From Hydractinia symbiolongicarpus (lineage: Eukaryota > Cnidaria > Hydrozoa > Anthoathecata > Hydractiniidae): a DNA stretch of 64,000 nt. Positions 12,906-36,443 of this stretch are shown here, piece by piece. The DNA lies in the NCBI RefSeq assembly GCF_029227915.1, contig NC_079878.1, positions 26,997,501-27,061,500 of the forward strand, written 5' to 3'. A model generated the notes under the pieces. The model saw only the letters and a program-made list of their open reading frames with translations. It did no database searches and was not told the origin of the DNA. Each line of letters opens with the position of its first letter. Position 1 is the first letter of the stretch. A program made the translations under genes and the position numbers.

Positions 12906-15057
12906 TTGTAATTTTCATTCTTATGGATGATTTATGTATTGAGAATGTGAAAAATATGTATTCAATTGAAAAGAGAAACGAAAGAATACCAAAGTTTATT
13001 GAACACATTCCCCAAATAGACATGGTCTCTAAAAAATATAATGCACACCTGGGTGTTTATTCAAAGCAATACAGTATTTATTAAATGTAAGGAAAATGAT
13101 GACAAGAAAGTTTTTTTGGCTCAAAATTTAAGAAACTAGCCAGCCTGAAAATTTGGAAAGTTAATCAACCAAGTCTTAAAACTTGATAATCTAGCAGGCA
13201 GTCTGCGAAACAATTTTTTAAATGAATGAAGTCTTTTTTTCTACTAAATCATAACATTTGCAGAGATAGCAAGTGTAAAGCTGAAATCTTGTAAAATTTG
13301 AATATCACGCTTAGCAACTTCATAGCAAGTTTGAGGTGGAAATCAATATTTTACCATTAGCAATGAGACTGAAATGAAAAATGGACTTGCTTAAAAAAAA
13401 GTGTTTTTCAACAACATACCAATATCAAATAAAATGCATACACTTTTTTTAAATAAGAACAATTTTATAAGAACAATAAGGCTTAAAATTGTTGAAATAA
13501 GTAAGAACAAGGCTATAAATTCTGAGAAACACAGCAAACATGGAGAAATATCTTTCAGTTTATAAATTTTCACAGAATCAATCGTTGCACTTTTATGAAA
13601 CTTAGATTTTAGGTTGCAAAAATTTCTAAAGAATGAAAATATTGAAAATTTAAGAACAGAATAAGAACAATTTCAGGCTGAACGAGTAAAAAAAATAAGA
13701 ACACTTCAGGATGAAACCCAATTTCCTGGTTCTTATAAAAAAAAAGTGTACATGTTTTAAACATTATCACTTTACTCATCCTTTTTAAAGATATCAAATA
13801 ATTTTGCAACTTAGGTGGTAGTAACCTCTTTTTAGCAGTCCAAACAGCTGCATTATTTACTCAACGTTTTATGTATACAAATATTTATACTATGAAAATA
13901 TGGTCTTTAAGCGTATGAAAATGATTTTGACTTATTATCTAAAGTTGGCAGAAATTTCCAGTTAAAAATGTATAATAAACAAGAAAAAATCCAGCTTTTT
14001 ACAACTTCATGATTTTTTATTAGCTTCTGCTTTTAACTGATCTTTGGGTTAACCATGTGGAAAAGATGTGCAGAATTTTTTCTTCATTCATATTTTTCTA
14101 ACAATAGGCTTTTTTTATTAAAGGTTATTGGATAGCATCCTATGCTGCATCAAAGGCTGTTGAAAGAAAAAATATCCAGATTAATTATATTTCTGCACAC
14201 CATACCATACCAAACATGTCTGAAAGTTTTAAAGAAAAACGAAAAGCTATGAATATTGTTGTAAATTTCTACGTTACACGCTATCTTTGTTGATATTAAG
14301 GATTCTTTTAATAATTCTGCCGTTCATTCTGTATAATTTTACAAACACATAGCACTGGAACCGTAATTGGCAGACTTTATTAATTATTCACGACGTTTTG
14401 AGTTTAAAGAGGAGTTGTTGTAGCTGAATATTTTTGGTGAAAGATAAGAGTATTTTAGCAATGAAATCTTGAAAAGAGTGTTATAATAGTAATCATATGG
14501 AAATTTAGTGTAGAAATAACTTTTAGTAACTGCATATGTAAAAAAAGAAATTTCAGATTTTAAAAGGGTTTACTGTCTCCTTAATGGTTTTCAAAAGTGC
14601 AATTTTGAGCAGGTAAATTTTGCAAACAGGGCCGAGTTTTTTAAAGTTAGTTCTGCAAAAATAAGTTCCGCAAAAGTTATATTATTCAATCTGAGGAAAA
14701 TTGAGTCGATTCTAACCTCATTAGCTATTGATTGTTGCTTAGATTCTTCATTTTGCTAAATATAAAATTTATTTATAGTGCTAATAATGTTAAACATGCT
14801 TTAGAGAGCCATACACACTAACAAGCATTCCATAGTATCAACTTGTAAGTGCTGAGCACAAGAAAATCTTCTTTAAAAGTACATTTAAAAACGAAAGACT
14901 TCCACTAACACAATTTTAAGAATAAAAAATTAATAAAATAAAAATACACACAATTGTGAAAATCCTAAACTATTCTACCATAAGGAAATTCATTTTCACG
15001 AGAATTAATTTTAGCAAATTTTGTGAGTTTTAGTCAATTTCGCTAAAAATTAGATCC
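12906..15057. other. AT-rich non-coding DNA
   Basis: No gene recognised. Repeated AATAAGAAC phrases at 13450-13700 and TTCGCGAAAATTAATT-type phrases at 14640-15050 are of the kind found in cnidarian interspersed repeats. Confidence 0.4.
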
Positions 15058-15220
15058 ACAATCTTGGACAAAATATGTATGGACTTTTTAATTTCCCCCT
15101 TCCCCCCAACTTCAAGGTTGAATTTTGAAGGTCAATCACTGTTTTGGCTCCATCACTGAGCTTGGGGGGGAGGGGGTGTTCAAATTTAATACTTGTCCAC
15201 TAATTTATGTCCAAGATTGT
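15058..15220. repeat. End unit R1 (163 bp, internal dyad symmetry)
   Basis: Begins ACAATCTTGGAC and ends GTCCAAGATTGT. Inside, CCCCCTTCCCCCCAA (about 15096-15110) is complementary, with small differences, to the TTGGGGGGGAGGGGG stretch (about 15162-15176). The unit can fold on itself and reads nearly the same as a direct or inverted repeat. It could be the transposase target, a hairpin telomere, or a MITE in its own right. Confidence 0.75.
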
Positions 15221-15798
15221 GTAAAATCCATAAAAATTTTTTGAAAAGGTAGGTAGGACAAAATATCCATCAAAATCCAAAAAATACCTTTAAAAACTGC
15301 CTGCACAGATGCCTTCCACATTGTCACATGGCCGGCTGCCATTTTTGAATATTCGTGAGCTCAAAAATCATTTCGTGCATGTTTTACATGACACCAAAAC
15401 AAACATTCAAATTTCGGCGGCAAATTCAGTATTGAAAGCGAAAGTGATTGGTGGCAACTGTACAGGCAAGGTCTTTAGCGTGAAATAAACAGTTCCATAG
15501 GTAAAAGAACATAGCCGTTTTATATATTCATGTTTGTTTACATTAGAGCAGAGAAATACTAGCTACTGCTATACGAACCAAAGAAACTGTAAAATATAAA
15601 ATATATAGCTAAATAAAAGGTCTCATAGCTTCTACTTGTAACATAGCTCATTTAATATATTACATATTTTCCCAAGTTTGATAAAACAACCTAAGATTGT
15701 AGTCTTACACTGTGTAGTGGCTTCGCCTGTGACTGCTCCTTTTGGTAATTTTAGATTGTCTTGTATAGACACACACACGTCAACACTAAGAGCGCGAA

Positions 15799-17148
15799 AT
15801 GGCCGAAAACAACCAGGTTGATTTCACACAAAGTTCTGTAGGTGACCGAGCCGCACGAAGGACCTATTTAATAACATGCAGTCAGGTGAACAAAACAAAA
15901 TTTTCAACACGAGAAAGCTTTGGACGATGCGTTGCAAACTATTTTAATTCGGGCTCTGGACAAGCGAAGGTTGACTACTGGGCCTGTTGTCTAGAGCAGC
16001 ACCAGGACAGCGGGGAACACTACCACATGAGTGTTAAATTAACAGGACCTAAGCGATGGAAGAGCGTGAAAAACCAAGTGTCGCAGTCACACGGCCAAGT
16101 CCTACACTTTTCAGATTCACACGACAGTTACTATAGTGCGTACAAGTATGTATGTAAAACTGATCGTGAGGTTTATAAGAGCAAAGGACATCCCAACCTA
16201 GAGAATATCGGCTCTCCCAGAACAAAACTATGTATAAAGTCGTATCGTCAAAAACATAAACTATCTAAACAAAATGGTGCAAACAACACCGATAAACATA
16301 ACAATAATGAACACAACATGAGCAAAAAAGCTAAGGTTGCACGGTTGACACATTTAGAAGTAGGCGAGTTTATCATTGCACATAATATAAAAACAGTGAA
16401 GTCTTTGTTTAGCGTTGCCAATGAGAGACTAAACGCAGGCAATAAGGACTTAGCAAACTTTGTTATGCCGCGTTCAAAGAAAAGTTTGTCCGAATTGGTA
16501 GATGATGCGTGGACCATGAACAGTGCGAAAGTTAATTTGCAGAGGGATTCGTTGACCCGAATGGGATTGTTGACGCAGGCGAGAGAGAGTCCATGTGTGA
16601 GCGGCTGCAATTCGCAGTGGTTACAATGTGCGATGGAGGTGTTGTTTAACAACAGCATCAACCCCCTAGTTTTTGCTGCCAGTGTTTGAAATCTTTTAAC
16701 GAAGGGCAGAGGAAAATTTCGAAATATCTTTATCACGGGCCCGGCAAATTGTGGAAAAACGTTTTTACTGTCTCCCTTGCAAAAAATCTACAAAACGTTT
16801 TGCAGTCCGGCTAATGACAAGTACGCATGGCTCGGAGTTGAAAACGGCGAGGTTATCTTCCTGAACGACTTTTGTTACAACACCGAAGTGATAGCATGGA
16901 AGGATATGCTGTTGCTGCTTGAAGGCCAGACGGTGCACCTTCCAACCCCCAAAAATATTTACTCTGCTGACATTACCATTTCAAACGACATACCTGTTTT
17001 CGCAACAGGAATAAGACCTATCACGTTTCCCGGCAAAGCCCGATGGAAAGTGTTCGAGTTCCACCATCAAATAGCCGAGCGAGAGCAAAAGGAGATGCAA
17101 GCTTGGCCGCGGTGTTTTGCTGAGTTTGTTTTTTCAGAGGATTTGTAG
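15799..17148 (+). pseudogene. Rep protein, HUH nickase plus SF3 helicase, copy 1 (one internal stop)
   Basis: From the ATG at 15799 the frame reads through an N-terminal HUH domain: motif 1 TYLITCSQVN at residues 22-31, HUH motif EHYH at 73-76, catalytic motif 3 YVCK at 117-120 within YYSAYKYVCK. Then comes an SF3 helicase: Walker A GPANCGKT near 314, Walker B VIFLNDF near 352, motif C IPVFATGIRPI. This architecture is that of CRESS-DNA and parvovirus-like replication proteins: nick the origin, attach by tyrosine, unwind. A TGA at 16687-16689, where copy 2 has CGA, cuts the protein between nickase and helicase, and 13 codons present in copy 2 are missing at about 17035. The nickase half (296 residues) is intact. 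Confidence 0.85.
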
Positions 17149-17172
17149 CCTGAACACTTTGCTGTGTTTTAC

Positions 17173-17397
17173 CAACACGTTACCATACTACTACACGTTA
17201 CCGTACACGTTACAGTTATTATAAGTGATAAACCTTAGTAAAAGGAACACGTTACCACACGTTACCATCACATTTTATAAGCTTTATATAACATTATTTA
17301 TCACAAAGTTGACGGTAACGTGTTGGATATAGGCACTCCACAGTCTAAAAAGCACGGTAACGTGTACGGTAACGTGTAGCATGATGGTAACGTGTGC
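17173..17397. promoter_or_regulatory. Iteron palindrome, candidate replication origin, copy 1
   Basis: Nine copies of ACACGTTACC or close variants. Five are forward, starting at 17175, 17193, 17205, 17247 and 17257. Four are reverse (GGTAACGTGT), starting at 17314, 17356, 17368 and 17386. Spacings of 18, 12 and 42 on the left are mirrored as 42, 12 and 18 on the right, all about one centre near 17285. It lies between the converging Rep and transposase 3' ends. Iterons near the nick site are how HUH Reps recognise origins, so Rep binding is the simplest reading. Transposase binding is possible. Confidence 0.7.
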
Positions 17398-17674
17398 AAA
17401 AAAACTTCTGTTTCCCCTATGTGCAATATCTTGAGAGTTTTGTTGTTTTTATAAGATTTTGAAAAGACAAATGCAACCTTCAGCAACACAACATAGATCT
17501 AAACATAAATTAGATGCCGTAAATATATATAAACGCAAGAATCTCGTGCACCTTACTATGAAAATGTTTTTACACAGAAGTTTTCAGTGGTGGGTTATAC
17601 CGTGCCAGACACCAACCTGGTATTTTGAGAACCCCACGTTAAATAGCTGTGCACGGATTCTTGCGCATATCAAG

Positions 17675-18777
17675 TTAATATTTTATTCTCTGGCCCTTGG
17701 CCTTCACCACCATGTCTATTCGCTTTGACATACTTTCTATTAAATTATTGATTATCTCGATAGGAAAATTTAATATGCAATTCTTTACACGTAAGGAAAA
17801 TTCTTCAAAAGACTCTCTGCTTATTTGCTTTGACACAGCCTCAAGTTGCAATTTTTTTGAACAAGATGAAAAAAATTCTCTATTGGGTTTAAATCTAGAC
17901 TTCGCGCTGGTATCGAAAATATTTTAGCACCAACCTTCTCAATTTGAATTCGTGCGGCCTTGCTATTTTGCCTGGGACAGCCATCCATCAGAAACGTTTT
18001 GGACTCACACTTGTCTTGACACTTTTCAAATGCTTGGGGGAACGTCGCTTTCACTATGTTGCCAAACTTTTCTCCTGTGATCGGTCCAAAGTACTGCTCG
18101 CAAATAACTGCTCCGTGGTTATGCGATATCGCAACCATAAAGTTTGCGTTCCTCGATCCCTCTTTTTTCCCTTTTGCAACGCAACCAAGCAGTAGTCCCT
18201 CGCCAATTCTACGCCATTCTCGAGCTTTTGGTGCACGCGCTTGGTCCATTGGGTTGACCTTGTGCTCAAACCCTTTTCCATCGAGATAAAAAGAAATGGT
18301 GCGGTTCCAAAATTCCTGCCCACGGTTTACTGCCTTAATTTTCCGAGCAAACTTCATACGCAACTGTGTGTCCTTTAATGACATTAGTCCCTTTTTCCTT
18401 GACATCAGGTACTTAAAGCCACTTCTTGCCAATGTACGTCTTATCGTTCTGTTTGATACCTTGTTTACGCCTGATTCCACTTGCACGCGTGCAGATGTGA
18501 AGGAACCTTCTCCTCGTAGCTTGTAGACAGAGCGGATCACGCTGCGGTTGTCTTGTACAGTCAGTTTCCGTGGTCGGCCTTTGTTGCACTTGCGTTTGTC
18601 GGCAACGGGCTCGCCATTAATTGATTTCTTTGTATGGATATAAATAGCACCTTTGCAGTATTGCGGGAACATTTGTAGCAGGGCTTTTCCTCTCACACCA
18701 CCCAACTGATATGCCGTTCTGATTTGACACGAGTGCTCCAAAGGGATCTTACAGCGGCGTTCTTGTTTATTTTGCAT
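17675..18777 (-). pseudogene. Tc1-type DD34E transposase, copy 1 (C-terminal frameshift)
   Basis: The open frame 18777-17821 gives 318 residues: N-terminal helix-turn-helix region (about 10-75), a GRPRK motif at 67-71, second DNA-binding part to about 125, then the catalytic core with D166 (FYLDGKG), D265 (FLMDGCP) and E300 (LDLNPIENFF). The spacing of 34 residues between the last two is diagnostic of Tc1. After LRLCQSK a TAA ends the frame, but the typical Tc1 tail (NFPIEIINNLIESMSKR, ending VKAKGQRIKY) continues at once in another frame to 17675. The lesion is the same in copy 2. It should cut and join element ends. Without the tail it may still be active, since the catalytic triad is complete. 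Confidence 0.8.
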
Positions 18778-18785
18778 TTTTGTTT

Positions 18786-19195
18786 TGACCTGTTATGAGA
18801 AACTTGTCTTATTTATATTTTGTTGCAGGATATTATGTGTTATTGATAAAGCACTGAAAGTTTATAGATGTAAACGACTTAATACAAATAAATTGAGAGA
18901 AGATATCTTAGTGAACTTCAAAAAACTTTATGTCATTACTCGAACCCACATCAACACGAAGAACTTGTATAAGAACACTAAACGCATTATTCAGTTTGCT
19001 TGTCAGTTTTATAGGAGGAAAAATACGAGAAAATTTAAGAAACACAAGAAAATTATTGAAACTTTTTGGCAGTTATGGAATATTAAAACCAAGGCATGAA
19101 GCCGAAGTGGCCTAGCTAGCAACTTATCTCATGGACAATCAAAAGCTTGCACGTAAACAAACCAACCAAAATTGACTAAGTCTTCAAAATTAGAG
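18786..19195. other. Element DNA between transposase start and R2
   Basis: About 400 bases conserved in both copies, upstream of the transposase ATG and likely holding its promoter. A plus-strand frame of 104 codons (18785-19099) is conserved only because the DNA is, and copy 2 ends it differently. Confidence 0.4.
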
Positions 19196-19358
19196 ACAAT
19201 CTTGGACAAAATATGTATGGACTTTTTAATTTCCCCCTTCCCCCCAACTTCAAGGTTGAATTTTGAAGGTCAATCACTGTTTTGGCTCCAACACTGAGCT
19301 TGGGGGGAAGGGGGTGTTCAAATTTAATACTTGTCCACTAATTCATGTCCAAGATTGT
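19196..19358. repeat. End unit R2, shared by the two copies
   Basis: Nearly identical to R1 and R3. It is the only copy at the junction of the two tandem elements. Flanking bases are GAG before and CT after, unlike the outer flanks. Confidence 0.8.
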
Positions 19359-19868
19359 CTAAAATCCATAAAAAATTTTTGAAAAGGTAGGTAGGACAAA
19401 ATATCCATCAAAATCCAAAAAATACCTTTAAAAACTGCCTGCACAGATGCCTTCCACATTGTCACATGGCCGGCTGCCATTTTTGAATATTCGTGAGCTC
19501 AAAAATCATTTCGTGCATGTTTTACATGACACCAAAACAAACATTCAAATTTCGGCGGCAAATTCAGTATTGAAAGCGAAAGTGATTGGTGGCAACTGTA
19601 CAGGCAAGGTCTTTAGCGTGAAATAAACAGTTCCATAGGTAAAAGAACATAGCCGTTTTATATATTCATGTTTGTTTACATTAGAGAAGGTCTCTTAGCT
19701 TCTACTTGTAACATAGTTCATTTAATATATTACATATTTTCCCTAGTTTGATAAAACAACCTAAGATTGTAGTATTACACTGTGTAGTGGCTTCGCCTAT
19801 GACTGCTCCTTTTGGTAATTTTAGATTGTCTTGTATAGACACACACACGTCAACACTAAGAGCGCGAA

Positions 19869-21128
19869 ATGGCCGAAAACAACCAGGTTGATTTCACACA
19901 AAGTTCTGTAGGTGACCGAGCCGCACGAAGGACATATTTAATAACATGCAGTCAGGTGAACAAAACAAAATTTCCAACACGAGAAAGCTTCGGACGATGC
20001 GTTGCAAACTATTTTAATTCGGGCTCTGGACAAGCGAAGGTTGACTACTGGGCCTGTTGTCTAGAGCAGCACCAGGACAGCGGGGAGCACTACCACATGA
20101 GTGTTAAATTAACAGGACCTAAGCGATGGAAGAGCGTGAAAAACCAAGTGTCGCAGTCACACGGCCAAGTCCTACACTTTTCAGATTCACACGACAGTTA
20201 CTATAGTGCGTAAAATGGTGCAAACAACACCGATAAACATAACAATAATGAACACAACATGAGCAAAAAAGCTAAGGTTGCACGGTTGACACATTTAGAA
20301 GTAGGGGAGTTTATCATTGCACATAATATAAAAACAGTGAAGTCTTTGTTTAGCGTTGCCAATGAGAGACTGAACGCAGGCAATAAGGACTTAGCAAACT
20401 TTGTTATGCCGCGTTCAAAGAAAAGTTTGTCCGAATTGGTAGATGATGCGTGGATCATGAACAGTGCGAAAGTTGATTTGCAGAGGGATTCGTTGACCCG
20501 AATGGGGTTGTTGACGCAGGCGAGAGAGAGTCCATGTGTGAGCGGCTGCAATTCGCAGTGGTTACAATGTGCGATGGAGGTGTTGTTTAACAACAGCATC
20601 AACACCCTAGTTTTTGCTGCCAGTGTTCGAAATCTTTTAACGAAGGGCAGAGGAAAATTTCGAAATATCTTTATCACGGGCCCGGCAAATTGTGGAAAAA
20701 CGTTTTTACTGTCTCCCTTGCAAAAAATCTACAAAACGTTTTGCAGTCCGGCTAATGACAAGTACGCATGGCTCGGAGTTGAAAACAGCGAGGTTATCTT
20801 CCTGAACGACTTTCGTTACAACACCGAAGTGATAGCATGGAAGGAGATGCTGTTGCTGCTTGAAGGCCAGACGGTGCACCTTCCAACCCCCAAAAATATT
20901 TACTCTGCTGACATTACCATTTCAAACGACATACCTGTTTTCGCAACAGGAATAAGACCTATCACGTTTCCCGGCAAATACAACACAACAGACGATCGGG
21001 AAAACGAGATGATGGCTGCCCGATGGAAAGTGTTCGAGTTCCACCATCAAATAGCCGAGCGAGAGCAAAAGTAGATGCAAGCTTGTCCGCGGTGTTTTGC
21101 TGAGTTTGTTTTTTCAGAGGATTTGTAG
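19869..21128 (+). pseudogene. Rep protein, copy 2 (43-codon deletion removes the catalytic tyrosine)
   Basis: Same start and HUH motif as copy 1, but 129 bases matching 16142-16270 of copy 1 are absent. The deletion is in phase, removes YKYVCK and the following residues, and creates a TAA at the junction (20211-20213). The same frame then stays open from 20214, with an internal ATG at 20259, through an uninterrupted SF3 helicase (GPANCGKT, VIFLND, FATGIRPI) to a TAG at 21072-21074, where copy 1 has GAG. Copy 2 thus keeps an open helicase and lacks a nickase, the reverse of copy 1. Confidence 0.85.
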
Positions 21129-21152
21129 CCTGAACACTTTGCTGTGTTTTAC

Positions 21153-21377
21153 CAACACGTTACCATACTACTACACGTTACCGTACACGTTACAGTTATT
21201 ATAAGTGATAAACCTTAGTGAAAGGAACACGTTACCACACGTTAACATCACATTTTATAAGCTTTATATAACATTATTTATCACAAAGTTGACGGTAACG
21301 TGTTGGAAATAGGCACTCCACAGTCTAAAAAGCACGGTAACGTGTACGGTAACGTGTAGCATGATGGTAATGTGTGC
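21153..21377. promoter_or_regulatory. Iteron palindrome, copy 2
   Basis: Same nine sites and mirrored spacings as copy 1, shifted by 3980 bases (centre near 21265). Two sites carry single changes (ACACGTTAAC near 21237, GGTAATGTGT near 21366). The other sites are intact. Confidence 0.7.
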
Positions 21378-21654
21378 AAAAAAACTTCTGTTTCCCTTAT
21401 GTGCAATATCTTGAGAGTTTTGTTGTTTTTATAAGATTTTGAAAAGACAAATGCAACCTTCAGCAACACAACATAGATCTAAACATAAATTAGATGCCGT
21501 AAATATATATAAACGCAAGAATCTCGTGCACCTTACTATGAAAATTTTTTTACACAGAAGTTTTCAGTGGTGGGTTATACCGTGCCAGACACCAACCTGG
21601 TATTTTGAGAACCCCACGTTAAATAGCTGTGCACGGATTCTTGCGCATATCAAG

Positions 21655-22757
21655 TTAATATTTTATTCTCTGGCCCTTGGCCTTCACCACCATGTCTATT
21701 CGCTTTGACATACTTTCTATTAAATTATTGATTATCTCGATAGGAAAATTTAATATGCAATTCTTTACACGTAAGGAAAATTCTTCAAAAGACTCTCTGC
21801 TTATTTGCTTTGACACAGCCTCAAGTTGCAATTTTTTTGAACAAGATGAAAAAAATTCTCTATTGGGTTTAAATCTGGACTTCGCGCTGGTATCGAAAAT
21901 ATTTTAGCACCAACCTTCTCAATTTGAATTCGTGCGGCCTTGCTATTTTGCCTGGGACAGCCATCCATCAGAAACGTTTTGGACTCACACTTGTCTTGAC
22001 ACTTTTCAAATGCTTGGGGGAATGTCGCTTTCACTATGTTGCCAAACTTTTCTCCTGTGATCGGTCCAAAGTACTGCTCGCAAATAACTGCTCCGTGGTT
22101 ATGCGATATCGCAACCATAAAGTTTGCGTTCCTCGATCCCTCTTTTTTCCCTTTTGCAACGCAACCAAGCCGTAGTCCCTCGCCAATTCTACGCCATTCT
22201 CGACCTTTTGGTGCACGCGCTTGGTCCATTGGGTTGACCTTGTGCTCAAACCCTTTTCCATCGAGATAAAAAGAAATGGTGCGGTTCCAAAATTCTTGCC
22301 CACGCTTTACTGCCTTAATTTTCCGAGCAAACTTCATACGCAACTGTGTGTCCTTTAATGACATTAGTTCCTTTTTCCTTGACTGCAGGTACTTAAAGCC
22401 ACTTCTTGCCAATGTACGTCTTATCGTTCTGTTTGATACCTTGTTTACGCCTGATTCCACTTGCACGCGTGCAGATGTGAAGGAACCTTCTCCTCGTAGC
22501 TTGTAGACAGAGCGGATCACGCTGCGGTTGTCTTGTATAGTCAGTTTCCGTGGTCGGCCTTTGTTGCACTTGCGTTTGTCGGCAACGGGCTCGCCATTAA
22601 TTGATTTCTTTGCATGGATATAAATAGCACCTTTGCAGTATTGCGGGAACATTTGTAGCAGGGCTTTTCCTCTCACACCACCCAACTGATATGCCGTTCT
22701 GATTTGACACGAGTGCTCCAAAGGGATCTTACAGCGGCGTTCTTGTTTATTTTGCAT
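21655..22757 (-). pseudogene. Tc1-type DD34E transposase, copy 2 (same C-terminal frameshift)
   Basis: 318-residue frame at 22757-21801 with the same catalytic D166, D265, E300. A few substitutions relative to copy 1 (for example SPDLNPIENFF instead of SLDLNPIENFF, the former being the family consensus). The TAA after LRLCQSK and the continuation of the tail in another frame to 21655 are identical to copy 1. Confidence 0.8.
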
Positions 22758-23015
22758 TTTTGTTTTGACCTGTTATGAGAAACTTGTCTTATTTAAATTT
22801 TGTTGCAGGATATTATGTGTTATTGATAAAGCACTGATAGCTTATAGATGTAAACGACTTAATACATATAAATTGAGAGAAGATATCTTAGTGAACTTCA
22901 AAAAACTTTATGTCATTACTCGAACCCACATCAACACGAAGAACTTGTATAAGAACACTAAACGCATTATTCAGTTTGCTTGTCAGTTTTATAGGAGAAA
23001 AAATACGAGAAAATT

Positions 23016-23140
23016 ATCAAAACTTTCAAAACTTGATGTAGCGACTCTGCCCCCCTCTAAGAAAGCATTTATATAAGAAAATGTTTTGTTTGTTTGTTTG
23101 TTTGTTTGTTTGTTTGTTTGTTTGTTTGTTTGTTTACATA
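23016..23140. repeat. Insertion specific to copy 2 with a TTTG microsatellite
   Basis: About 123 bases absent from copy 1. It begins CAAAACTTTCAAAACTTG and ends in roughly a dozen TTTG units (23087-23137). The microsatellite is consistent with the 3' end of a small retroposed insertion. Confidence 0.6.
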
Positions 23141-23298
23141 AGAAACACAAGAAAATTATTGAAACTTTTTGGCAGTTATGGAATATTAAAACCAAGGCAT
23201 GAAGCCGAAGTGGCCTAGCTAGCAACTTATCTCATGGACAATCAAAAGCTTGCACGTAAACAAACCAACCAAAATTGACTAAGTCTTCAAAATTAAAG

Positions 23299-23460
23299 AC
23301 AATCTTGGACAAAATATGTATGGACTTTTTAATTTCCCCCTTCCCCCCAACTTCAAGGTTGAATTTTGAAGGTCAATCACTGTTTTGGCTCCAACACTGA
23401 GCTTGGGGGGGAGGGGGTGTTCAAATTTAATACTTGTCCACTAATTTAAGTCCAAGATTG
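23299..23460. repeat. End unit R3
   Basis: Right outer end of the array. It has the same G-rich and C-rich arms as R1 and R2 and ends GTCCAAGATTG, after which unrelated sequence starts. Confidence 0.8.
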
Positions 23461-23461
23461 C

Positions 23462-26710: not shown

Positions 26711-26820
26711 AAACATGTGACATCATACCTCAAATGAGTAAAACACGTGACACCATACCTCAAATGAGTAAAACATGTGACATCATGCCTCAAATGAGTA
26801 AAACATGTGACATCATGCCT
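26711..26820. repeat. 30-bp tandem repeat at the left Polinton end
   Basis: About 3.7 units of CAAATGAGTAAAACATGTGA plus CATCATGCCT with a few changes. Only about one unit is present at the right end, inside the inverted repeat. Confidence 0.85.
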
Positions 26821-27084
26821 TAAATGTTGTCACCCTGGTTGGGGTCACAACATAAAATAAAATGTCAAGTGCGTTAGAAAATTTTCCAACATATAATAAA
26901 GCAATGAGTTTCTTTAGAAATGCAATTAGTAAATTATATAGCGCTGTATCTGCACCAGTGGCAGCAACACGTGATGCACTCGCAGAGAGACTGCAGAGTG
27001 TACGAGACACTGTTTCTTTATTATACCACAATGCTAAGGAGAGGCTTGGTTACGGTCAAGCCTTGAAAGCCACCGTTGAAGACG
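26786..27084 (+). repeat. Left terminal inverted repeat of the Polinton
   Basis: Matches the reverse complement of 42047-42345 with few differences. It contains one 30-bp repeat unit, the motif TTGGGGTCACAACATAAAAT just before the start codon at 26862, and the first 74 codons of the polymerase gene. Similarity stops at the codons for VED. Confidence 0.9.
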
Positions 27085-30000
27085 CTGCTGTGGAAGAAGA
27101 ACAAGTGGAAGAAGTGGATCACAGTGCTGTTGAAACGGAAGGTGGATTTGATGGTAATTATCGACATTTCCGAAGTGAAGAAACACCAGAAGGTCAACTG
27201 GTGAGTATTGAACAGTACCTGGATCAACAGAAACAACATGTGGAGAAAGTCATCACAGACTTGCAAAACACTAGACAGAATTGGAAGATTCAACTGAATC
27301 TCGTGGTGGAGTTTGTGCACAAGGAAAATCCTTCCGACAAGTTCACAAAACCAATATGGAGTGAAGCTGTCACAATTATGGAAGAAAGTGACATCGAAGA
27401 ATTGATCGAAGAGATGTATAAAAGCCTGCTAAAACGCTTTGAAATGACATCGGAGAAACTCAAAAAAAGCGACTACATCTTCAAGCGAATCACTGAAATG
27501 ACGTATCACTGCCACATGATTGACCTTATGAGAGGTAGATCATGGTTCAAGACACCCGAATGGCTGCAAAAAAAGCACTGCATCATCAATCCCAAAAATG
27601 AAGACGAGCAGTGCTTCAAATGGGCCGTCATTGCAGCACTGCACCACAACGAAATCAAAAACGATCCCCAACGCATCTCGAAGCTCGGACCGTTTGTTGA
27701 ACATTACAATTGGAGTGGCATCGAGTACCCAACTCCCAACACACACTGGAAAAAGTTTGAAAGGCAAAACCCCAACGTGGCGTTGAATGTCTACTTTTCT
27801 GAAGAAGATTTTCAGGTCAGGCAGGCATATGTTTCAAAACACAACACGACACGTGAAAAGGTGGCAGATGTTCTAATCATTCAAGAAGGCAATAAAAAGC
27901 ACTACGTTGCCATTAAAAGATACCCTGCGCTCATGCGCGGTTTATCATCTAGACATCGAGGTGATCACTACTGTCGAAACTGCATGCACGGATTCCGCAG
28001 TCAAGAGACACGAGACAATCACATGAAAGTGTGCATGGACCATGATTTTTGCGAGATTGTCATGCCTAAAGAAGGAACAGTCCTCAAACACGAAGATGGG
28101 CAAAAGTCGCTCAGAATGCCATTTGTCATCTATGCAGACAGAGTGTATCTTGGAACCTGTTCAAGGTTGTGATGGAGACCCTGCAAAATCACACACCAGA
28201 GACGTCAGCAAGCATGTGGCTTCAGGATATGCCTTCATAACTAAATTTGCACATGGAGAAGTTGAAGAATCATCCGACTGCTATCGTGGAAAAGACTGCA
28301 TGGAAAGGTTTTGTAAGGGACTGAGAGATCAAGTCAATAGAGCTATCAGACATCCACAGAAGAAGATGATCCCGTTGACACACGAAGAGAAAGAAGCCCA
28401 CAAGTCTGCAAAAAGATGCTTCATTTGCAATGGGCTTTTCAAGAAGAACAACAAAGACATCACAATGCGCAAAGTTCGAGATCACTGTCACTACACTGGT
28501 CAGTATTGAGGAGCTGCACACAGTTCGTGCAACCTAAAATATCGCATCCCCAACGAGATTCCGGTGGTCATGCACAATCGCTCACGGTATGACGATCACA
28601 TCATCATCAAGCAACTGGCCAGGGAATTCAAAAGCCACGAGTTTGAATGTCTGGGTGAAAACAGCGAAAAATACATCAGCTTCTCCATCAAGCAATCCGT
28701 CACATTTCAAGGAAAAGACGGCGAACCGCTGAAGCAGATGAGGAAGAACAAGAAAACCAACCAAATGAAAGAAGTGGAAATCAGCACGACCTGCAAAATC
28801 AAGTTTATCGACAGCTGCAGGTTCATGCAAAGCTCATTGTCAAGCCTTGTAGATAATTTAGCTGGAACCAACAGTGTCAGCTGCAACGACTGCAAATCAA
28901 ACATGGAACTCATCGAGATTGACTCAGAGTACAAGGCGCAATTCAAGTGCCAAACCCGTTACTGCTCTTACAAGACGGTGGAACTAAATGAGCATTCCAT
29001 GAAAAAGAAATTTTCCAGCACATTCAAGCATGCAAAGGGCAATGACGAGCACTTAAGACTTTTCCTGCGTAAGGGTGTTTACCCCTACGAATACATGGAT
29101 GCGTGGGAGCGTTTTAAAGAGACAGCACTTCCTCCAAAAGCACAATTTTACAGCAGCTTGAACCTTGAAAACATCACCGAAAACGACTACAAGCATGCTC
29201 AAAAGGTGTGGAAGGCTTTCAACATCAAAAACCTTGGAGAGTACCACGATCTCTACGTGATGAGCGACACGCTTCTTTTAGCAGAAGTTTTTGAAAATTT
29301 TCGAGACACTTGTCAAAACATCTACGAGCTTGATCCAGCGTATTTTTACACTGCTCCAGGCCTCGCATGGCAAGCAGCTCTAAAAGTGACGGGTCAGGTG
29401 CTCGAGCTTCTCTCAGACATCGAGGGGCTCAGGGGTGGTATTTGCCAAGCAATCAAGCCCCATGCTAAGGCGAACAATCCGTACATGGGGGAATTGTTTG
29501 ATGTCAACCTGTTGATCTCGTATCTGCTGTACATCGATGCCAACAATCTGTACGGAGGTGCCATGTCACAAAAGCTGCCAACACACGGCTTTAAGTGGCG
29601 TGAAGACCTCGAAAATTTTACTCAAGCTTTTATAGAAAATTATAAAAATGGAGATGATGGCTATTTTCTTGAGGTGGATGTCCACTACCCGAAAAAGCTG
29701 CACAAACTCCACAACGACCTTCCATTCTTGCCTGAAAAGATGCGTCTGAACAACGACTGTGAAAAGTTGACGTGCAATGTGTTTGACAAGGAAAAATACG
29801 TGCTGCACATTCGCAAATTGCAGCAGGCACTGCAGCATGGATTGGTTCTCACCAAGGTGCACCGAGTCATTGAGTTCAAGCAAAGTGCTTGGCTGAAACC
29901 CTACATTGACATGAACACAAAGCTGCGAAAGGATGCAAAAAATGACTTTGAGAAAGACTTTTTTAAGCTAATGAATAATAGCGTCTTTGGCAAGACCATG

Positions 30001-30777
30001 GAGAACGTTCGCAAGCACCGTGATATCAAACTGGTGACAACGGAATGGAGGCGCAAGAAGCTCGCATCAGCTCCAAACTATCACAGCACATCAAGATTTG
30101 ACAAGAAATTTGTGGCAATGGAAATGAACAAAGTGAAGGTCGTCATGAACAAACCTGTCTACCTCGGCCTCTCCATCTTGGACTTGAGCAAACTCACGAT
30201 GTATGAGTTTCACTATGACTATATCAAGCCGAAGTTTGGTGCAAGCGCAGAGCTTTGCTACATGGACACAGATAGTTTCGTCTACCACATCAAAACAGAC
30301 GATGTCTATAAAGATATCGCAGGTGACGTTGAATCAAGGTTTGACAAACGTCCCTTGCCTATTGGCAAAAGCAAGAAAAAATTGTGCTTAATAAAGGATG
30401 AACTTGGTGGCAAAATCATGATCGAATTTGTTGCATTGAGGTCAAAAATGTATGCGTACAAGACACTCGAAGGATACGTGCAAAAGAAGGCAAAAGGTAC
30501 AAAAAAGTGTGTCGTCAAGAAACAGATCACGTTCGCAGACTATTTGAGCAGCCTGCAGACCTGTCAAAATTTGTATCGCACGCAACTGAGATTTACCAGT
30601 CGAAAACACGAGATTTTCACCGAAAAGCTGAACAAAATTGCGCTGAGTGTTGATGATGACAAGCGACTTCAAGCTCAAGGTGGGTTCACCTTTGCACATG
30701 GAAGCAGTCCTGGATTGGTTTGCAAGCAAGAATTGCTCACCAGAGTGTGGCATCCCGACCATGTTAAACTGTTTTGA
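26862..30777 (+). pseudogene. polB: Polinton protein-primed DNA polymerase B (frameshift and stop)
   Basis: Residues 1-74 come from the terminal repeat and are followed by an acidic linker. A Cys/His segment (HYCRNCMHGF ... HMKVCMDH) precedes the exonuclease domain. Near 28137-28142 two bases appear lost inside the Exo I motif, destroying it and shifting the frame. A TGA at 28507-28509 then interrupts a CxxC...HDHC-type segment (RCFICNGLF, DHCHYTG). From 28564 the frame is open to the end with palm motif A (DANNLYGG, about 29536), motif B (NNSVFGKT, about 29971) and motif C (YMDTDS, about 30259), complete and of Polinton type. It would replicate the element from a terminal protein. This copy cannot be full-length. 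Confidence 0.95.
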
Positions 30778-30832
30778 GTCTCGCGGGATGCTTCAAAAAT
30801 TTATTTGCATCTCACACGTCTGTGTTTTCAAA

Positions 30833-31264
30833 ATGTCAAAATTTTCTGTTACAAACGTTTGCATTCAGCATGGTCTTGATCACGGAAATGCATTAAAAAA
30901 AATGATACTTGAACTCTTGTTGGTAATGTTGTACGTAAGTTTTTTGTACGTCTACTGCAAGTTTTCCTCTCTAATAAAAGTTATGTCAGAACTGAATGAA
31001 ATTTTAGACGTCTTAGACACACCGTCACCAGCAATGAGAAAGCGGGAAAAAGTCAAGCAAAACTTGAGTGTCGTCAACTCTCTGGGAAAAAAGCAGTGGA
31101 CGCCTGAGTTGCTGGATAAAGCGACAGAGAAACAACTTGACAACCTCTTGAAGAAGCTCAAGGCACAAGCGCAAAAATCAGCAGCAAAAGACTTGCTGTC
31201 AAAAATGTCAGGTGTTGACAATTTTCAGACCATGATGAGCGACAAGACTCGACTTCAGAGTTGA
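30833..31264 (+). CDS. Small Polinton protein, membrane segment plus coiled coil
   Basis: 143 residues from the ATG at 30833, or 93 from an in-frame ATG at 30983. The longer form has a hydrophobic segment at about 26-46 (LELLLVMLYVSFLYVYC). The rest is lysine- and leucine-rich (KQLDNLLKKLKAQAQKSAAK) and probably helical. No family recognised. It follows the polymerase closely. Confidence 0.5.
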   Translation: MSKFSVTNVCIQHGLDHGNALKKMILELLLVMLYVSFLYVYCKFSSLIKVMSELNEILDVLDTPSPAMRKREKVKQNLSVVNSLGKKQWTPELLDKATEKQLDNLLKKLKAQAQKSAAKDLLSKMSGVDNFQTMMSDKTRLQS

Positions 31265-31332
31265 TTGGTAATGTAACGGAGAAATTGCCATCGTTCACAG
31301 GGAACTCTCCGATGGACGTTGCAGGGTGATAC

Positions 31333-31509
31333 ATGTATGAAAAGTGCGGGCTGTGGCTCGCTCCCGTCTCCCTGTTTTGCAGAGTTTTCAACCATCTGAA
31401 CTGGAAAAAATTCAGCGAAATTGCCGAGGAGCGTCAAGCGCAAATCAAACTGCGAAAAGATTTTCCGGATGAAATAGAACCAAGTTTCGCAGAGCAGAAG
31501 CCGTCTTGA
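31333..31509 (+). CDS. Small Polinton ORF, 58 residues
   Basis: Begins MYEKCGLWLAPVSLF and ends FAEQKPS. A short hydrophobic N-terminus is followed by a charged helix (KKFSEIAEERQAQIKLRK). It sits between two supported small genes, with close spacing. It could be a small membrane-associated virion protein. Function unknown. Confidence 0.4.
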   Translation: MYEKCGLWLAPVSLFCRVFNHLNWKKFSEIAEERQAQIKLRKDFPDEIEPSFAEQKPS

Positions 31510-31550
31510 TGTAAAAAAAGATTTTTGTACGTCTCACGACTTACAAATAA

Positions 31551-31913
31551 ATGAGTGAATCTAACCAAGTCATAACCAATAAGAATGAGGGTCGTGTTGC
31601 TGCTAGCAAGAGACTTGCTGAATGGAACCGCAAGAACAAGGCCAAGTTGAAGCAAGTACCTGCTCAGGTCGAGACAAGTGAGAATTCAAGTACCTCAGCA
31701 AGTACTTCGCAAGAGGGTCAGGAACCTGTCGCAGGTCCACACAAGTTCAGTGCATATCTCTATGGCGCTGGAGGTATTGCCGTTCTTGCCGTTTGCGTGG
31801 CAGTTTATTATATACGTAAGAAGCCTAGCGTCGCCGCAGGAGTAAGCGTGTCAGCGGAAGGGCCGTCTCAGCAGCAAAAGCCTTCGAAAATTGACATTTT
31901 TCACATGCGATAA
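31551..31913 (+). CDS. Small single-pass membrane protein of the Polinton
   Basis: 120 residues: basic N-terminus (KRLAEWNRKNKAKLK), a Ser/Thr/Gln-rich linker, one transmembrane helix at about 66-87 (LYGAGGIAVLAVCVAVYYI), then a short tail ending KIDIFHMR. No family name. Layout suggests a virion membrane or capsid-associated protein. Confidence 0.6.
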   Translation: MSESNQVITNKNEGRVAASKRLAEWNRKNKAKLKQVPAQVETSENSSTSASTSQEGQEPVAGPHKFSAYLYGAGGIAVLAVCVAVYYIRKKPSVAAGVSVSAEGPSQQQKPSKIDIFHMR

Positions 31914-31923
31914 ACCTTAATAA

Positions 31924-32169
31924 ATGAGCACCAAAGAGTATGAGAAAGAAATAGTTGATTCCTTGTGGGAAGCTGGTAGACTAGTATCCTATACTATTCT
32001 CTTGGCGCTAGGCGGGAAACAAGTTCTGGGAGTTTCTAGACCGGGGGCTAAGATGGACATGTCGGACGGCTTGAAGCTCGCTGGCTATATGACAGGAGCG
32101 ATAATATTCGACGATTACGCGATAAAACATCAGTGGTATAAACGTTCCCTAATGCCTCCGAAAGTCTAG
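31924..32169 (+). CDS. Small hydrophobic Polinton protein, 81 residues
   Basis: Two weakly hydrophobic segments (LVSYTILLALGGKQVLGV and LKLAGYMTGAIIFDDYAI). It lies ten bases after the previous gene and twelve before the ATPase, so the three are packed together. Similar small proteins precede the ATPase in other Polintons as far as I recall. Function unknown. Confidence 0.55.
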   Translation: MSTKEYEKEIVDSLWEAGRLVSYTILLALGGKQVLGVSRPGAKMDMSDGLKLAGYMTGAIIFDDYAIKHQWYKRSLMPPKV

Positions 32170-32181
32170 CCTTGAATAAAT

Positions 32182-32772
32182 ATGACTCTTATTAAAGATC
32201 CGCATACGACAATCTTCACCGGGCCTACAAGTTGCGGCAAGACGCAGCTTGTCCTGGATTTACTTAAGAACGAGTACAGACATCATCTCGACAACATTGT
32301 AATTCTCTGCCCTACAATTCGCTGGAACAAGACCTATCTCGAGAGGTCCTCGAAGTGGAAAGATGACTATGTGTCCTTGGTGGAGCCCAAGGAGCAGCTG
32401 TTCGAGTGGATCCAAAAACTGTCGTCGTTGCTGGCGGGCGAAGAGACGCTTTTCATCATTGACGATATGATAGCTGACGAGAGTCTCGACAAAAAACGTC
32501 AATCCCTGCTTGAGCTTGCCATCAGCGGTAGACATCGCAAACACAGTCTCTTGTTACTCACTCAAAGCTACACGGCCATTCCGAAGAACCTTCGAAGGCA
32601 AAAAAAGCAGCTATTCATGTTGTACCCCTCGGAAAGGAGCGACATGAAAATGGTAGACGAAGAGACAAATATAATCAACGACTGGGAGACCATTAAGACT
32701 GAATTGAAAAAGTCCAAGCATGCAAGCCTGTACGTAAGACTGGAGCATCCTAGAAGTTACAAGATCGCCTAG
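32182..32772 (+). CDS. Genome-packaging ATPase (FtsK/HerA type)
   Basis: 196 residues, intact. Walker A GPTSCGKT at 14-21, Walker B LFIIDDM at 90-96, and a downstream LLLLTQSY that fits the sensor region of the A32-like ATPases of Polintons, virophages and large DNA viruses. Family role: pump DNA into the capsid. Length is near the family norm. It is one of the few core genes of this element without a lesion. Confidence 0.9.
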   Translation: MTLIKDPHTTIFTGPTSCGKTQLVLDLLKNEYRHHLDNIVILCPTIRWNKTYLERSSKWKDDYVSLVEPKEQLFEWIQKLSSLLAGEETLFIIDDMIADESLDKKRQSLLELAISGRHRKHSLLLLTQSYTAIPKNLRRQKKQLFMLYPSERSDMKMVDEETNIINDWETIKTELKKSKHASLYVRLEHPRSYKIA

Positions 32773-32882
32773 ACGGGCTTCGCAGGAGCAGGTACAAAAT
32801 ACGGCTTGGCGACGCTATTACTAACCTCTCTAGGACAGATCTGTCCACCCTCAGCCAGATACAGTTTTACATATAATAAAAG

Positions 32883-33062
32883 ATGGATAATGAGAGCGTA
32901 ATTAAAGCTGTGTATCAAGCTCTTTTGAGAGCCCATGACAGACTGATAGATGCAGTGAATGACGATGACACCAAACTGGTAAACACGACTCGGGATATTG
33001 AAGAGTTATGCAAAAAATATCCATGGCTTCCTCAGCTTGGTGTTGGTTATTGGACCTCGTAA
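32883..33062 (+). CDS. Small Polinton ORF, 59 residues
   Basis: ATG at 32883, sequence starting MDNESVIKAVYQALLRAHDR and ending WLPQLGVGYWTS. Acidic and helical in appearance. It is preceded by TAATAAAAG and followed after about 35 bases by the repeat that flanks the Fic gene. Unrecognised. Confidence 0.4.
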   Translation: MDNESVIKAVYQALLRAHDRLIDAVNDDDTKLVNTTRDIEELCKKYPWLPQLGVGYWTS

Positions 33063-33095
33063 TTCTGTGATATTTTGCGAATCACAAAATCCCTA

Positions 33096-33118
33096 GTTGG
33101 GCCTTGGCGTGTATAAGA
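33096..33118 (+). repeat. 23-bp direct repeat, left copy (flanks Fic)
   Basis: GTTGGGCCTTGGCGTGTATA plus AGA. The right copy at 33985-34007 differs at one base. The two lie on either side of most of the Fic gene. Confidence 0.8.
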
Positions 33119-33181
33119 TTTGCTTGTCTTCCATTTTAAGATCACTAACCATTTCCTACTTGGAGCCAGATATTTAACAAA

Positions 33182-34027
33182 ATGGAAAAATTGAAAATGC
33201 AGTATTGGATGGTAGACGAAGATGAGTACCGAAATGTTTGGAGAAAGACTGCGACGCTAGCCAAACTCTCGCGAAAGCGAAAAAACCACGCATACGTAGA
33301 GGAATTTCTAAAAGGGTGGGAAGTCCTGTTCGCGTACGGAACCTACGCATCCGAAGGAGAGGTAGACCCCAACTTTTCAGCATCTGAGGCCTGGAACCTG
33401 ATGCAAGATCCTGAGAACGCACACGGCAAGACGAAAAGTTTCAAAAGGCAGATGATAAACTTTATGCGCGCTCTGAAATGGATGAAGTGCTGCGGGCGCC
33501 TCACGCCTGACAAAATCCAGACTGTCCATGAGATCATGATGCGCGGAGAAAAACACAAGAGCGGCAAACCCGTGCTGACGGGGAAATACAGGACGACTAA
33601 GGTATTCGCTGTTTTTCACGAATTTGCCCCTGTTTCTGCAATTCCAAGGTTAGTGACAGACGCCCTGGATCGATACTACTCTACAGAGACTGACGATCCG
33701 ATATGGAACGCGGCGAGGTTGTTTATAGACTTGATTAATATCCATCCATTCGAAGATGGGAACGGGAGGTTATGTAGGCTAGTTATTTCTCACGTACTTG
33801 TGGAGAGTGGGTTGAGCCTCTTTCCAGTTTTGCTTAGTTCGTTCCACAAACGCTACAGGCGCCATTACATTCAGGCTGTTAAAAGGTTTGAAGAGAGACC
33901 GTCGCTACTTTACACGATGGTCTGCAAGTCTTTGGTGAAGGTATGGAATAATTTCGAGCAAAGCTTGGCTCTACTAGATTCCTCGTTGAGCCTTGGCGTG
34001 TATAAGAAAGATGTCCTAGGTCAGTAA
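33182..34027 (+). CDS. Fic-domain protein (probable AMPylase), class II type
   Basis: 281 residues, intact. The Fic core motif HPFEDGNGRLCR (consensus HxFxxGNGRxxR) lies at about residues 188-199, with a helical bundle around it. An N-terminal TYASEG at about 53-58 fits the (S/T)xxxE(G/N) inhibitory helix, whose glutamate blocks ATP until displaced, so this would be a self-inhibited class II enzyme. Fic proteins transfer AMP or other nucleotide parts to target hydroxyls and regulate host factors or partner proteins. In a virus-like element it may act on the host or as an antitoxin-controlled effector; that is inference. Its last dozen residues lie in the right copy of the 23-bp repeat and beyond, and overlap the open frame of the BRO gene. 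Confidence 0.85.
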   Translation: MEKLKMQYWMVDEDEYRNVWRKTATLAKLSRKRKNHAYVEEFLKGWEVLFAYGTYASEGEVDPNFSASEAWNLMQDPENAHGKTKSFKRQMINFMRALKWMKCCGRLTPDKIQTVHEIMMRGEKHKSGKPVLTGKYRTTKVFAVFHEFAPVSAIPRLVTDALDRYYSTETDDPIWNAARLFIDLINIHPFEDGNGRLCRLVISHVLVESGLSLFPVLLSSFHKRYRRHYIQAVKRFEERPSLLYTMVCKSLVKVWNNFEQSLALLDSSLSLGVYKKDVLGQ

Positions 34028-34629
34028 TTTTTTCGAAGGCACATGTACCGGAGAAGCATGTAAAGCGGGCCTGGGAGGTTAAAAGTACCGCAGAAGACAA
34101 GTGGGTCGATATCGACCCTCTTCATTCAGACACGATGCTACTGACAGAGCCAGGCCTTTATTGCTTTCTCTTGAGGTGTGGTAGACCTGAAGCAGAACCA
34201 TTTTTGAATTGGATTGTTAAAGAAAAGGAAGCGGCGCTGGTTCTGCGCAACAACGACTTGGAGTACAAGGATCGAACGATAGCCGCACAAGAGCAAGAAA
34301 TCATAGAGCTACGACAGCGACATGTTCCATGTGCGCAAGATCCTCGAAAGGATAATGGGATGGTTATAATCCAAAAGAATAACAACGATGAATATCCGTA
34401 TGTCGCTATATGTGGGCAGCAGGGCTATGTAGCGCAAAAGATTCGCAACAAGTTAACAGATCATCCCAACGGTCAACTCGTCGTTCTTGCAGAAACTCCA
34501 AATGCCATTGTACATTACAACTGGCTCCGAGAGCGTGGATGCATTGAAATAAATCCCGAACGTCTAAAACACTTTCGATTAGGTCGTAATTATACACATC
34601 AGAGATTGATGGGGCTTGCCGAGATCTAG
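34006..34629 (+). CDS. BRO-like protein (BRO-N remainder plus C-terminal domain)
   Basis: From an ATG at 34135 there are 164 residues. LTEPGLYCFLL and EAEPFLNWI are the second half of a BRO-N domain. A coiled segment (LEYKDRTIAAQEQEIIELRQ) follows, then a compact C-terminal domain with YVAICGQQGYV, PNAIVHYNWL and LGRNYTHQRL. The frame is open back to 34006 and that part also looks like BRO-N, but has no ATG and overlaps the Fic end in another frame. So the start was probably lost, by frameshift or by arrival of Fic. BRO proteins of large DNA viruses bind DNA and are often multicopy. Confidence 0.65.
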   Translation, partial: ERCPRSVIFSKAHVPEKHVKRAWEVKSTAEDKWVDIDPLHSDTMLLTEPGLYCFLLRCGRPEAEPFLNWIVKEKEAALVLRNNDLEYKDRTIAAQEQEIIELRQRHVPCAQDPRKDNGMVIIQKNNNDEYPYVAICGQQGYVAQKIRNKLTDHPNGQLVVLAETPNAIVHYNWLRERGCIEINPERLKHFRLGRNYTHQRLMGLAEI

Positions 34630-34644
34630 GATTTTTTTTTGTAA

Positions 34645-34666
34645 CCCGTGCTCCTGCGGAGACGGG
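34645..34666 (+). terminator. 3' hairpin after the BRO gene
   Basis: CCCGT-g-CTCC / TGC / GGAG-ACGGG, a nine-base-pair stem with one bulge, sixteen bases after the stop and just after a T run. Hairpins at mRNA ends act as processing signals in mimiviruses and virophages; a similar role here is inference. Confidence 0.5.
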
Positions 34667-34757
34667 CGAGGCCCTGATAACTACTCACCAAGGCTATGGA
34701 CGAAGCTTGCGTGACCACTTCAAGTGTTAAAAGATAGTTAACACTTTAAGAAAAAAA

Positions 34758-35291: not shown

Positions 35292-35303
35292 CTCTGAGGA
35301 AGT

Positions 35304-35331
35304 ATTAATGTGAGCCACGGGTTCACATTAA
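35304..35331. terminator. Hairpin between converging genes
   Basis: TTAATGTGA and TCACATTAA arms around a ten-base loop, just after the stop at 35291 and before the integrase stop at 35403. Confidence 0.5.
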
Positions 35332-35352
35332 CCACGCTTATGGGTATCAACT

Positions 35353-35373
35353 GTTCCCCCGTACCGGGGGAAC
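35353..35373. terminator. Second hairpin between converging genes
   Basis: GTTCCCCC and GGGGGAAC, eight base pairs and a five-base loop. With the previous hairpin it gives one per transcript end. Confidence 0.5.
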
Positions 35374-35402
35374 CGGTGAAATGGCCCTCGGGCTCGTGAA
35401 AT

Positions 35403-36419: not shown

Positions 36420-36443
36420 AACATTTTAACTCCTGTGGAGACG

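Follow-up and report, generated by a model that had tools for sequence, protein, structure and literature searches.

Within the 64,000-nucleotide stretch of Hydractinia symbiolongicarpus DNA analysed here (the window), positions 15059-23460 form an array R-U-R-U-R, in which three 161-bp repeats (R) enclose two 4.1-kb units (U), each carrying a gene for a virus-type HUH-SF3 replication protein (Rep) together with a gene for a Tc1-type transposase. The reading that we favour, with a probability of about 0.6, is that these units belong to a composite family of eukaryotic DNA transposons of about 4 kb per unit, in which a Tc1/mariner DD34E transposase serves for exit and entry and the Rep amplifies the excised form. 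The transposase would act at R to leave and enter chromosomes. The Rep would bind the central iterons, melt the palindrome and nick it, and would then drive rolling-circle or hairpin-primed replication of the excised circle; the head-to-tail array would be a trace of such replication or of recombination between R copies. The element may be a jumping gene that is also able to copy itself.

The array is bounded on the left by R1 (15059..15219), a hairpin-forming terminal repeat (CAATCTTGGACA ... TGTCCAAGATTG), and on the right by R3 (23300..23460), whose right arm motif has one mismatch, while R2 (19197..19357) is common to units 1 and 2. Any two of these copies differ at 2-3 of their 161 positions (98-99% alike). 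R1 folds to a hairpin better than 200 of 200 shuffles (z -6.6), and because the R sequence is an imperfect palindrome, R copies on the same strand can serve as inverted ends. The case for R stands on the arm motif, present five times exactly and once with a single mismatch, and on the 161-bp alignment, not on the count of CAATCTTGGACA, which occurs 14 times in the window at up to two mismatches against 7.7 by chance, a number reached by 2 of 100 shuffles. A single R, and not two, lies between the units, which fits a circular or recombined intermediate and not two separate cut-and-paste insertions. When the outer flanks of R1 and R3 were compared by eye, only a 2-bp CA/CA match and no TA pair was seen, and the exact boundary of the element is unsure; the left flank resembles the right end of a unit for about 13 bp past R1. 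The GC content of unit 1 is 40%, against 31-32% in the flanks.

An earlier note on this DNA had proposed that each unit carries both genes, and both are indeed found inside one R-bounded unit. Apart from R, the two units align over 3780 bases at 98.78% identity, with four indels. The transposase belongs to the Tc1/mariner DD34E enzymes, with a Tc1-type HTH and an RNase H-like DDE fold. Its gene lies on the minus strand at 17824..18777 in unit 1, where the residues D166, D265 and E300 are numbered exactly as the note had given them, and at 21804..22757 in unit 2. Just past the catalytic E, near the 3′ end, both copies carry the identical frameshift, which shifts the conserved C-terminal tail to a different frame (17678..17887 and 21658..21867, both minus strand). 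Two protein searches found 559 and 756 relatives (the best 120 listed from each); the DDE triad is intact in 146 of 149 aligned transposases and the D-E spacing is 34 in 146 of 147.

The Rep is a HUH-SF3 protein encoded on the plus strand and interrupted by in-frame stops in both units. The first piece in unit 1 (15799..16689) contains the HUH motif, as HYH, at 16018-16026 and YVCK at 16147-16158, and ends at an in-frame stop; the second (16690..17148), which lacks 39 nt present in unit 2, encodes the SF3 helicase, with Walker A at 16738-16761 and, among the motifs found in the two pieces, Walker B. Unit 2 lacks the catalytic tyrosine: its first piece (19869..20213) retains the HUH motif and runs into an in-frame stop, with 129 nt missing relative to unit 1, including the catalytic-tyrosine region, and its second piece (20214..21074) encodes the SF3 helicase and has a premature stop near its end. 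Motif C in unit 1 reads FATGI, whose last place is K in 111 of 120 aligned relatives. A protein search found 597 Rep relatives (the best 120 listed), and among the 100 of these 120 that could be scored at all five columns, 94 keep HxH, YxxK and the Walker A Lys. In a structure ranking, the helicase half of the Rep model, built for relative P0001, came nearest to parvovirus and papillomavirus helicases, the model's matches being AAV Rep68/Rep40, B19 NS1 and papillomavirus E1. Neither the Rep pieces nor a Rep profile found a convincing match among PDB sequences, and PHROGs and NCBIfam assigned no Rep family to the two or three relatives that were scanned. The copies in the window are dead relics, and substitutions between the units are spread evenly, at 1.0-1.4% in all five regions, a pattern as for dead copies.

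In each unit the Rep (+) and transposase (-) genes converge, as the note had described, on an iteron palindrome: nine CACGTTACC-like repeats, of which eight are exact in unit 1 (17176..17394), where five direct copies precede four inverted ones, and six in unit 2 (21156..21374). The unit 1 region folds more strongly than 200 of 200 shuffles (z -7.9), and no iteron occurs inside R at the exact or one-mismatch level. As a candidate CRESS origin we considered TAGTATTAC, the CRESS-type nonanucleotide motif; it has two exact occurrences in the window, where 0.67 would be expected by chance, one of these copies lying in the array, in unit 2. Neither this copy (z -0.47) nor a one-base variant in unit 1 (z -0.88) outfolds its shuffles, so that no origin is demonstrated; with exact and one-base forms of the motif considered, the array yielded neither a nick site nor a nonanucleotide hairpin. 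Of the idea of an element that replicates like a CRESS virus and inserts like Tc1, the Tc1/mariner DD34E identity of the transposase is supported; the CRESS half is conjecture, with a helicase that models nearest to those of parvoviruses and papillomaviruses, and with no capsid gene or nonanucleotide hairpin found.

Does the pairing of the two genes extend beyond the window? The argument that two copies with the same arrangement exclude a chance neighbour is weak, since tandem units with one common frameshift are duplicates and alone give no proof that the pairing is non-random. Independent evidence came from the relatives, in which the active sites of both proteins are kept. When the 76 contigs with a Rep and the 68 with a transposase that reach 3.5 kb were compared, seven matches in exact contig size and source label were found, against a mean of 0.27 and a maximum of 3 in 600 fixed shifts; without the source label, the chance level for contigs of at least 3.5 kb is a mean of 0.93 and a maximum of 3 in 120 fixed shifts. 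Above 10 kb, two size and label matches stand against a mean of 0.003 and a maximum of 1. The 3.5-kb floor leaves room for both genes; it and the label rule were both adopted after a first, looser control, with all lengths jittered by 5% and short contigs included, which gave a mean of 2.0 and a maximum of 8 against six matches and hence no separation from chance. The seventh match came from a third protein search and preceded the restriction to this floor. Among the listed transposases, 69 of the 76 Rep contigs have no size partner. The two genes thus probably co-reside in relatives too, an indirect conclusion from matching contig sizes, and the claim of a non-random pairing finds its support in these relatives and not in the two units of the window.

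The best Rep match and the second-best transposase match of the window lie on contigs of equal size, 15,303 bp, and this pair places near the window proteins in both trees. The trees were built by a quick method without bootstrap from the seven paired proteins, filled up in order of rank with others of a set range of lengths, so that each tree held one window piece and 60 of 120 Reps or 60 of 149 transposases. The comparison of the two trees that the note had called for gave a mixed answer: a Mantel test on eight pairs was not significant (r 0.30, p 0.10), and while the 15,303-bp pair agrees, the pair P0004/P0232 falls in conflicting clades. Leaving out each of the seven database pairs in turn gave r from 0.06 to 0.56 and p from 0.41 to 0.009; p fell below 0.05 only on post hoc removal of either of two pairs, to which we give no weight.

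Three other explanations have to be weighed against an element that both transposes and replicates. That a single Rep-type insertion landed beside a Tc1 element, with tandem duplication mimicking a family, is disfavoured and in our judgement very improbable: the frameshift common to the units does make both count as one event, but the contig-size matches in relatives, including the two above 10 kb, and the close relatives of both window genes on contigs of equal 15,303-bp size argue against it. Less improbable, but still unlikely, is that the Rep is an accessory gene for regulation or repair in a Tc1-type transposon that moves by ordinary cut-and-paste, with no extrachromosomal replication, the array being a product of unequal crossing-over at R. 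The transposase could be enough by itself, as in other Tc1 elements, R copies so alike could recombine, and neither an origin nick site nor a nonanucleotide hairpin was found; however, the retention of Rep catalytic residues in 94 of the 100 scorable relatives and the strong iteron palindrome within the unit argue for replication activity.

An integrating virus or virus segment, parvovirus-like or CRESS-like, could instead have recruited the Tc1 transposase as its integrase, with capsid genes lost or on another segment. The structural matches of the Rep model and the R1 hairpin, as at parvovirus ends, speak for this origin, and virus-transposon fusions such as Teratorn are described (PMC10175614). 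Yet Pfam profiles gave no capsid family for the 11 ORFs of at least 80 aa in unit 1, and no confirmed Rep relative was found in IMG/VR and none in phage records with one Rep, a weak argument given the uncertain coverage of host viruses. We rate this origin as rather improbable.

Standard Tc1/mariner elements such as Sleeping Beauty and Mos1 carry a transposase only; the element here differs by its added Rep, and no TA duplication was visible at the array ends. That no family with this combination had been described was too strong a claim, for the idea of joining a Rep to a transposase has a precedent in the truffle Tuber melanosporum, whose geminivirus-like transposon is outlined as a Rep-like ORF and two transposase ORFs between 37-bp TIRs (Liu et al. 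2011, PMC3198968). By description, the units here share its outline, with ORFs for both a Rep and a transposase, flanked by terminal inverted repeats, in one repeated, multicopy element of a eukaryote genome; they differ in that the truffle element is fungal, with 37-bp TIRs, a geminivirus-like Rep and two transposase ORFs whose family is left unnamed, and the passages on it mention neither an iteron array nor a hairpin repeat (PMC3198968). It was the one precedent in a search of published papers, which gave no single element with a Rep and a Tc1 transposase. The same source describes DENSOV_HM of Hydra and an acorn worm parvovirus-like element, repeats of animals whose NS1/E1 sequences resemble those of parvoviruses or papillomaviruses, mentioning a transposase in its account of neither; the acorn worm element resembles ours, by description, in its hairpin end and differs by its capsid ORF (PMC3198968). 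Teratorn, a piggyBac-herpesvirus fusion, likewise combines a transposase with a viral replication module and integrates by transposition, but is outlined as 180 kb long and built from a herpesvirus and piggyBac (PMC10175614).

With CRESS-DNA viruses the element shares a Rep with HUH, YxxK and SF3 helicase, the motifs by which that Rep is defined (PMC6668415), but neither a capsid gene (by Pfam profiles) nor a nonanucleotide in an origin stem-loop was found here. With parvoviruses it shares an NS1-type SF3 helicase, present in the Rep, but not a capsid gene (again by Pfam profiles); parvovirus ends are hairpins and R1 also folds to one, though R1 may not be a genome end. A Helitron was considered and set aside, as the helicase here is predicted to be SF3 whereas that of Helitron RepHel is given as SF1 (PMC6213432).

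Why would a cut-and-paste transposon carry a replicase? The copy number of such transposons rises only indirectly, and an own viral-type replicase beside a Tc1 transposase would directly solve this problem. If our reading is true, the element would be a bridge between small DNA viruses and cut-and-paste transposons and would reveal a route for their interconversion. More tentatively, at slightly less than even odds, we anticipate a widespread, undescribed eukaryotic family, with named relatives in cnidarians: a capsid-less replicon that is excised by its Tc1 transposase, multiplied outside the chromosome from an iteron origin by a parvovirus/papillomavirus-type HUH-SF3 Rep, and then reinserted. 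Many relatives have intact active sites, which makes the idea testable in living animals.

An exogenous virus was also considered and rejected, the element not having been found in IMG/VR, in GTDB or, with one Rep, in phage records, viral and prokaryotic collections whose negatives say little about animals. The Rep alignment gave 81 pattern matches in IMG/VR and 40 in GTDB contigs, none confirmed, and the window transposase gave nothing in IMG/VR. The transposase alignment gave two distant matches in IMG/VR (27-29%) and 111 confirmed matches in GTDB contigs, of which 79 distinct loci were kept, all in prokaryote-titled records and with low identity over short stretches. In the NCBIfam scan of relatives, the transposase matched IS630 at 1.4e-15, under the NCBIfam cut-off.

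The array R1-unit 1-R2-unit 2-R3 lies head-to-tail at 15059-23460, with 161-bp R repeats at 15059-15219, 19197-19357 and 23300-23460 that start with CAATCTTGGACA, end with TGTCCAAGATTG (one mismatch at the end of R3) and differ pairwise at 2-3 positions. R1 folds into a hairpin of -34.9 kcal/mol; its shuffles average -16.7 (z -6.6), and 0/200 fold as well. Its left flank (15046-15058) resembles the right end of the unit for about 13 bp past R1, which may place the actual boundary of the element beyond R. Unit 1 has a GC content of 40%, compared with 31-32% in the flanks. The two 4.1-kb units share 98.78% identity across 3780 aligned positions, apart from four indels of 39-129 nt, and their differences are evenly distributed (upstream 1.21%, Rep 1.19%, iteron 1.13%, transposase 1.0%, right 1.43%); the transposase piece holds 11 of them, 3 at third codon positions. 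Units 1 and 2 have drifted as dead DNA.

Each unit encodes the HUH-SF3 replication protein Rep on the plus strand and a Tc1/mariner transposase on the minus strand, and the two genes are therefore convergent. An in-frame stop splits the Rep gene of unit 1; that of unit 2 contains stops and lacks a 129-nt stretch including the catalytic tyrosine. When Rep and transposase pieces were queried separately against Pfam, no Rep match reached its cut-off. The first pieces hit REP_ORF2-G2P (E 0.011 and 0.069) and the second pieces of both units RNA_helicase; the second piece of unit 2, the longer of the two, also hit papillomavirus E1 and Parvo_NS1. The transposase pieces matched DDE_3 above the cut-off, and HTH_Tnp_Tc3_2 slightly below it in unit 1 and slightly above it in unit 2. 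Rep and transposase aside, no unit 1 ORF of at least 80 aa had a Pfam match above cut-off, the best being DUF1420 (0.0011, slightly below cut-off) in an ORF that overlaps the transposase tail on the opposite strand.

Between the 3′ ends of the two genes, unit 1 carries nine CACGTTACC-like iterons (17176-17394), five direct and then four inverted; the same nine recur in unit 2, and 8/9 are exact in unit 1 versus 6/9 in unit 2. The unit 1 iteron region folds at -53.3 kcal/mol versus -27.1 for shuffled sequence (z -7.9; 0/200), and matches with at most one mismatch number 29 in the entire window versus 7.0 expected, a count that 0/100 shuffles reach. The convergence on an iteron palindrome described in the earlier note is thus borne out, as is its numbering of the transposase residues D166, D265 and E300. 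It had also argued that two copies make a chance pairing untenable. The arrangement is indeed the same in both units, but their independence does not hold: after E300 both transposase genes have a frameshift in common that puts the conserved tail out of frame, and the units therefore represent one event.

Evidence for pairing outside this locus was sought in the relatives, using as a proxy for linkage the exact size of the longest contig and the source label given for each. Among rows with a longest contig of at least 3.5 kb (76 of the 120 Rep and 68 of the 149 transposase relatives listed), seven Rep and transposase contigs agreed in both (15303, 17319, 4324, 3939, 4542, 3914 and 3868 bp). 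Over 600 shifts of the Rep sizes, by 1-300 bases in either direction, agreements averaged 0.27 and never exceeded 3, versus the 7 observed; above 10 kb there were 2, versus a mean of 0.003. In a looser earlier control that included short contigs, agreements were not separable from chance, and one of the seven may be coincidental. The 15303-bp pair comprises the window's best Rep match (65%) and second-best transposase match (68%) among the matches listed, and lies close to the window in both trees. For 69 of the 76 Rep contigs the transposase list held no partner; this may reflect a list limited to 149 of many transposases, clusters whose shared contig is not their longest, or a partner that is absent or broken. 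Elements joining Rep and a Tc1 transposase appear to form a broad family that includes intact members. Among the best 120 of 597 Rep relatives, two come with an organism name, one from the octocoral Paramuricea clavata and one from the jellyfish Rhopilema esculentum.

The comparison of Rep and transposase trees proposed in the earlier note did not show co-evolution: across eight pairs the distances were weakly correlated (r 0.30, p 0.10), with r depending on single pairs, and the trees conflict over P0004/P0232, the pair matched at 4,324 bp. The Rep tree groups this pair's Rep with the window (support 94; larger clade 99), while the transposase tree places its transposase far away (clade support 99), which means either that the size agreement arose by chance or that modules were exchanged. 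None of the starred sets in the trees includes the window transposase.

The earlier note knew of no described family with both genes. Liu et al. 2011 (PMC3198968) describe a precedent, a geminivirus-like transposon of the black truffle in which 37-bp inverted ends accompany a Rep-like ORF and two transposase ORFs; by that description it resembles the window units in joining Rep-like and transposase ORFs in one element, and the idea is therefore not new. The same paper reports a hairpin-ended parvovirus-like repeat in the acorn worm and DENSOV_HM in Hydra. What appears new, as far as the literature searched shows, is an element that combines a Tc1 DD34E transposase with a parvovirus/papillomavirus-type HUH-SF3 Rep and also has hairpin repeats and an iteron palindrome.

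In the most likely mechanism, which beyond gene content and conservation we infer, the transposase would act as its counterparts in other Tc1 elements do, binding the R ends and moving the unit; because R is palindromic, direct copies can act as inverted ends. The iteron array would be the binding site of Rep, which would melt the palindrome, introduce a nick in one strand and drive replication of an excised molecule with host polymerase. A single R between the units, not two, fits a circular or concatemeric intermediate, or R-R recombination.

The window holds other features as well. A Polinton/Maverick-like element (26786-42345; 297-bp inverted ends, 98.3% alike) carries an A32-like packaging ATPase, an rve integrase (slightly below cut-off) and a Fic-domain gene. 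From its right inverted end, a minus-strand ORF (41253-42275) runs into ankyrin repeats (81-bp period, 7.4 copies), and its left-end twin (26856-28172) runs into a different protein. Helitron-like remnants follow on the minus strand (42606-45859; Helitron_like_N and DUF6570, each slightly below cut-off). Further along lie a near-identical 1.17-kb tandem duplication (54315-55486 and 55590-56762; 99.66% identity) and a tandem array of 80-bp period and 9.8 copies (58671-59459).
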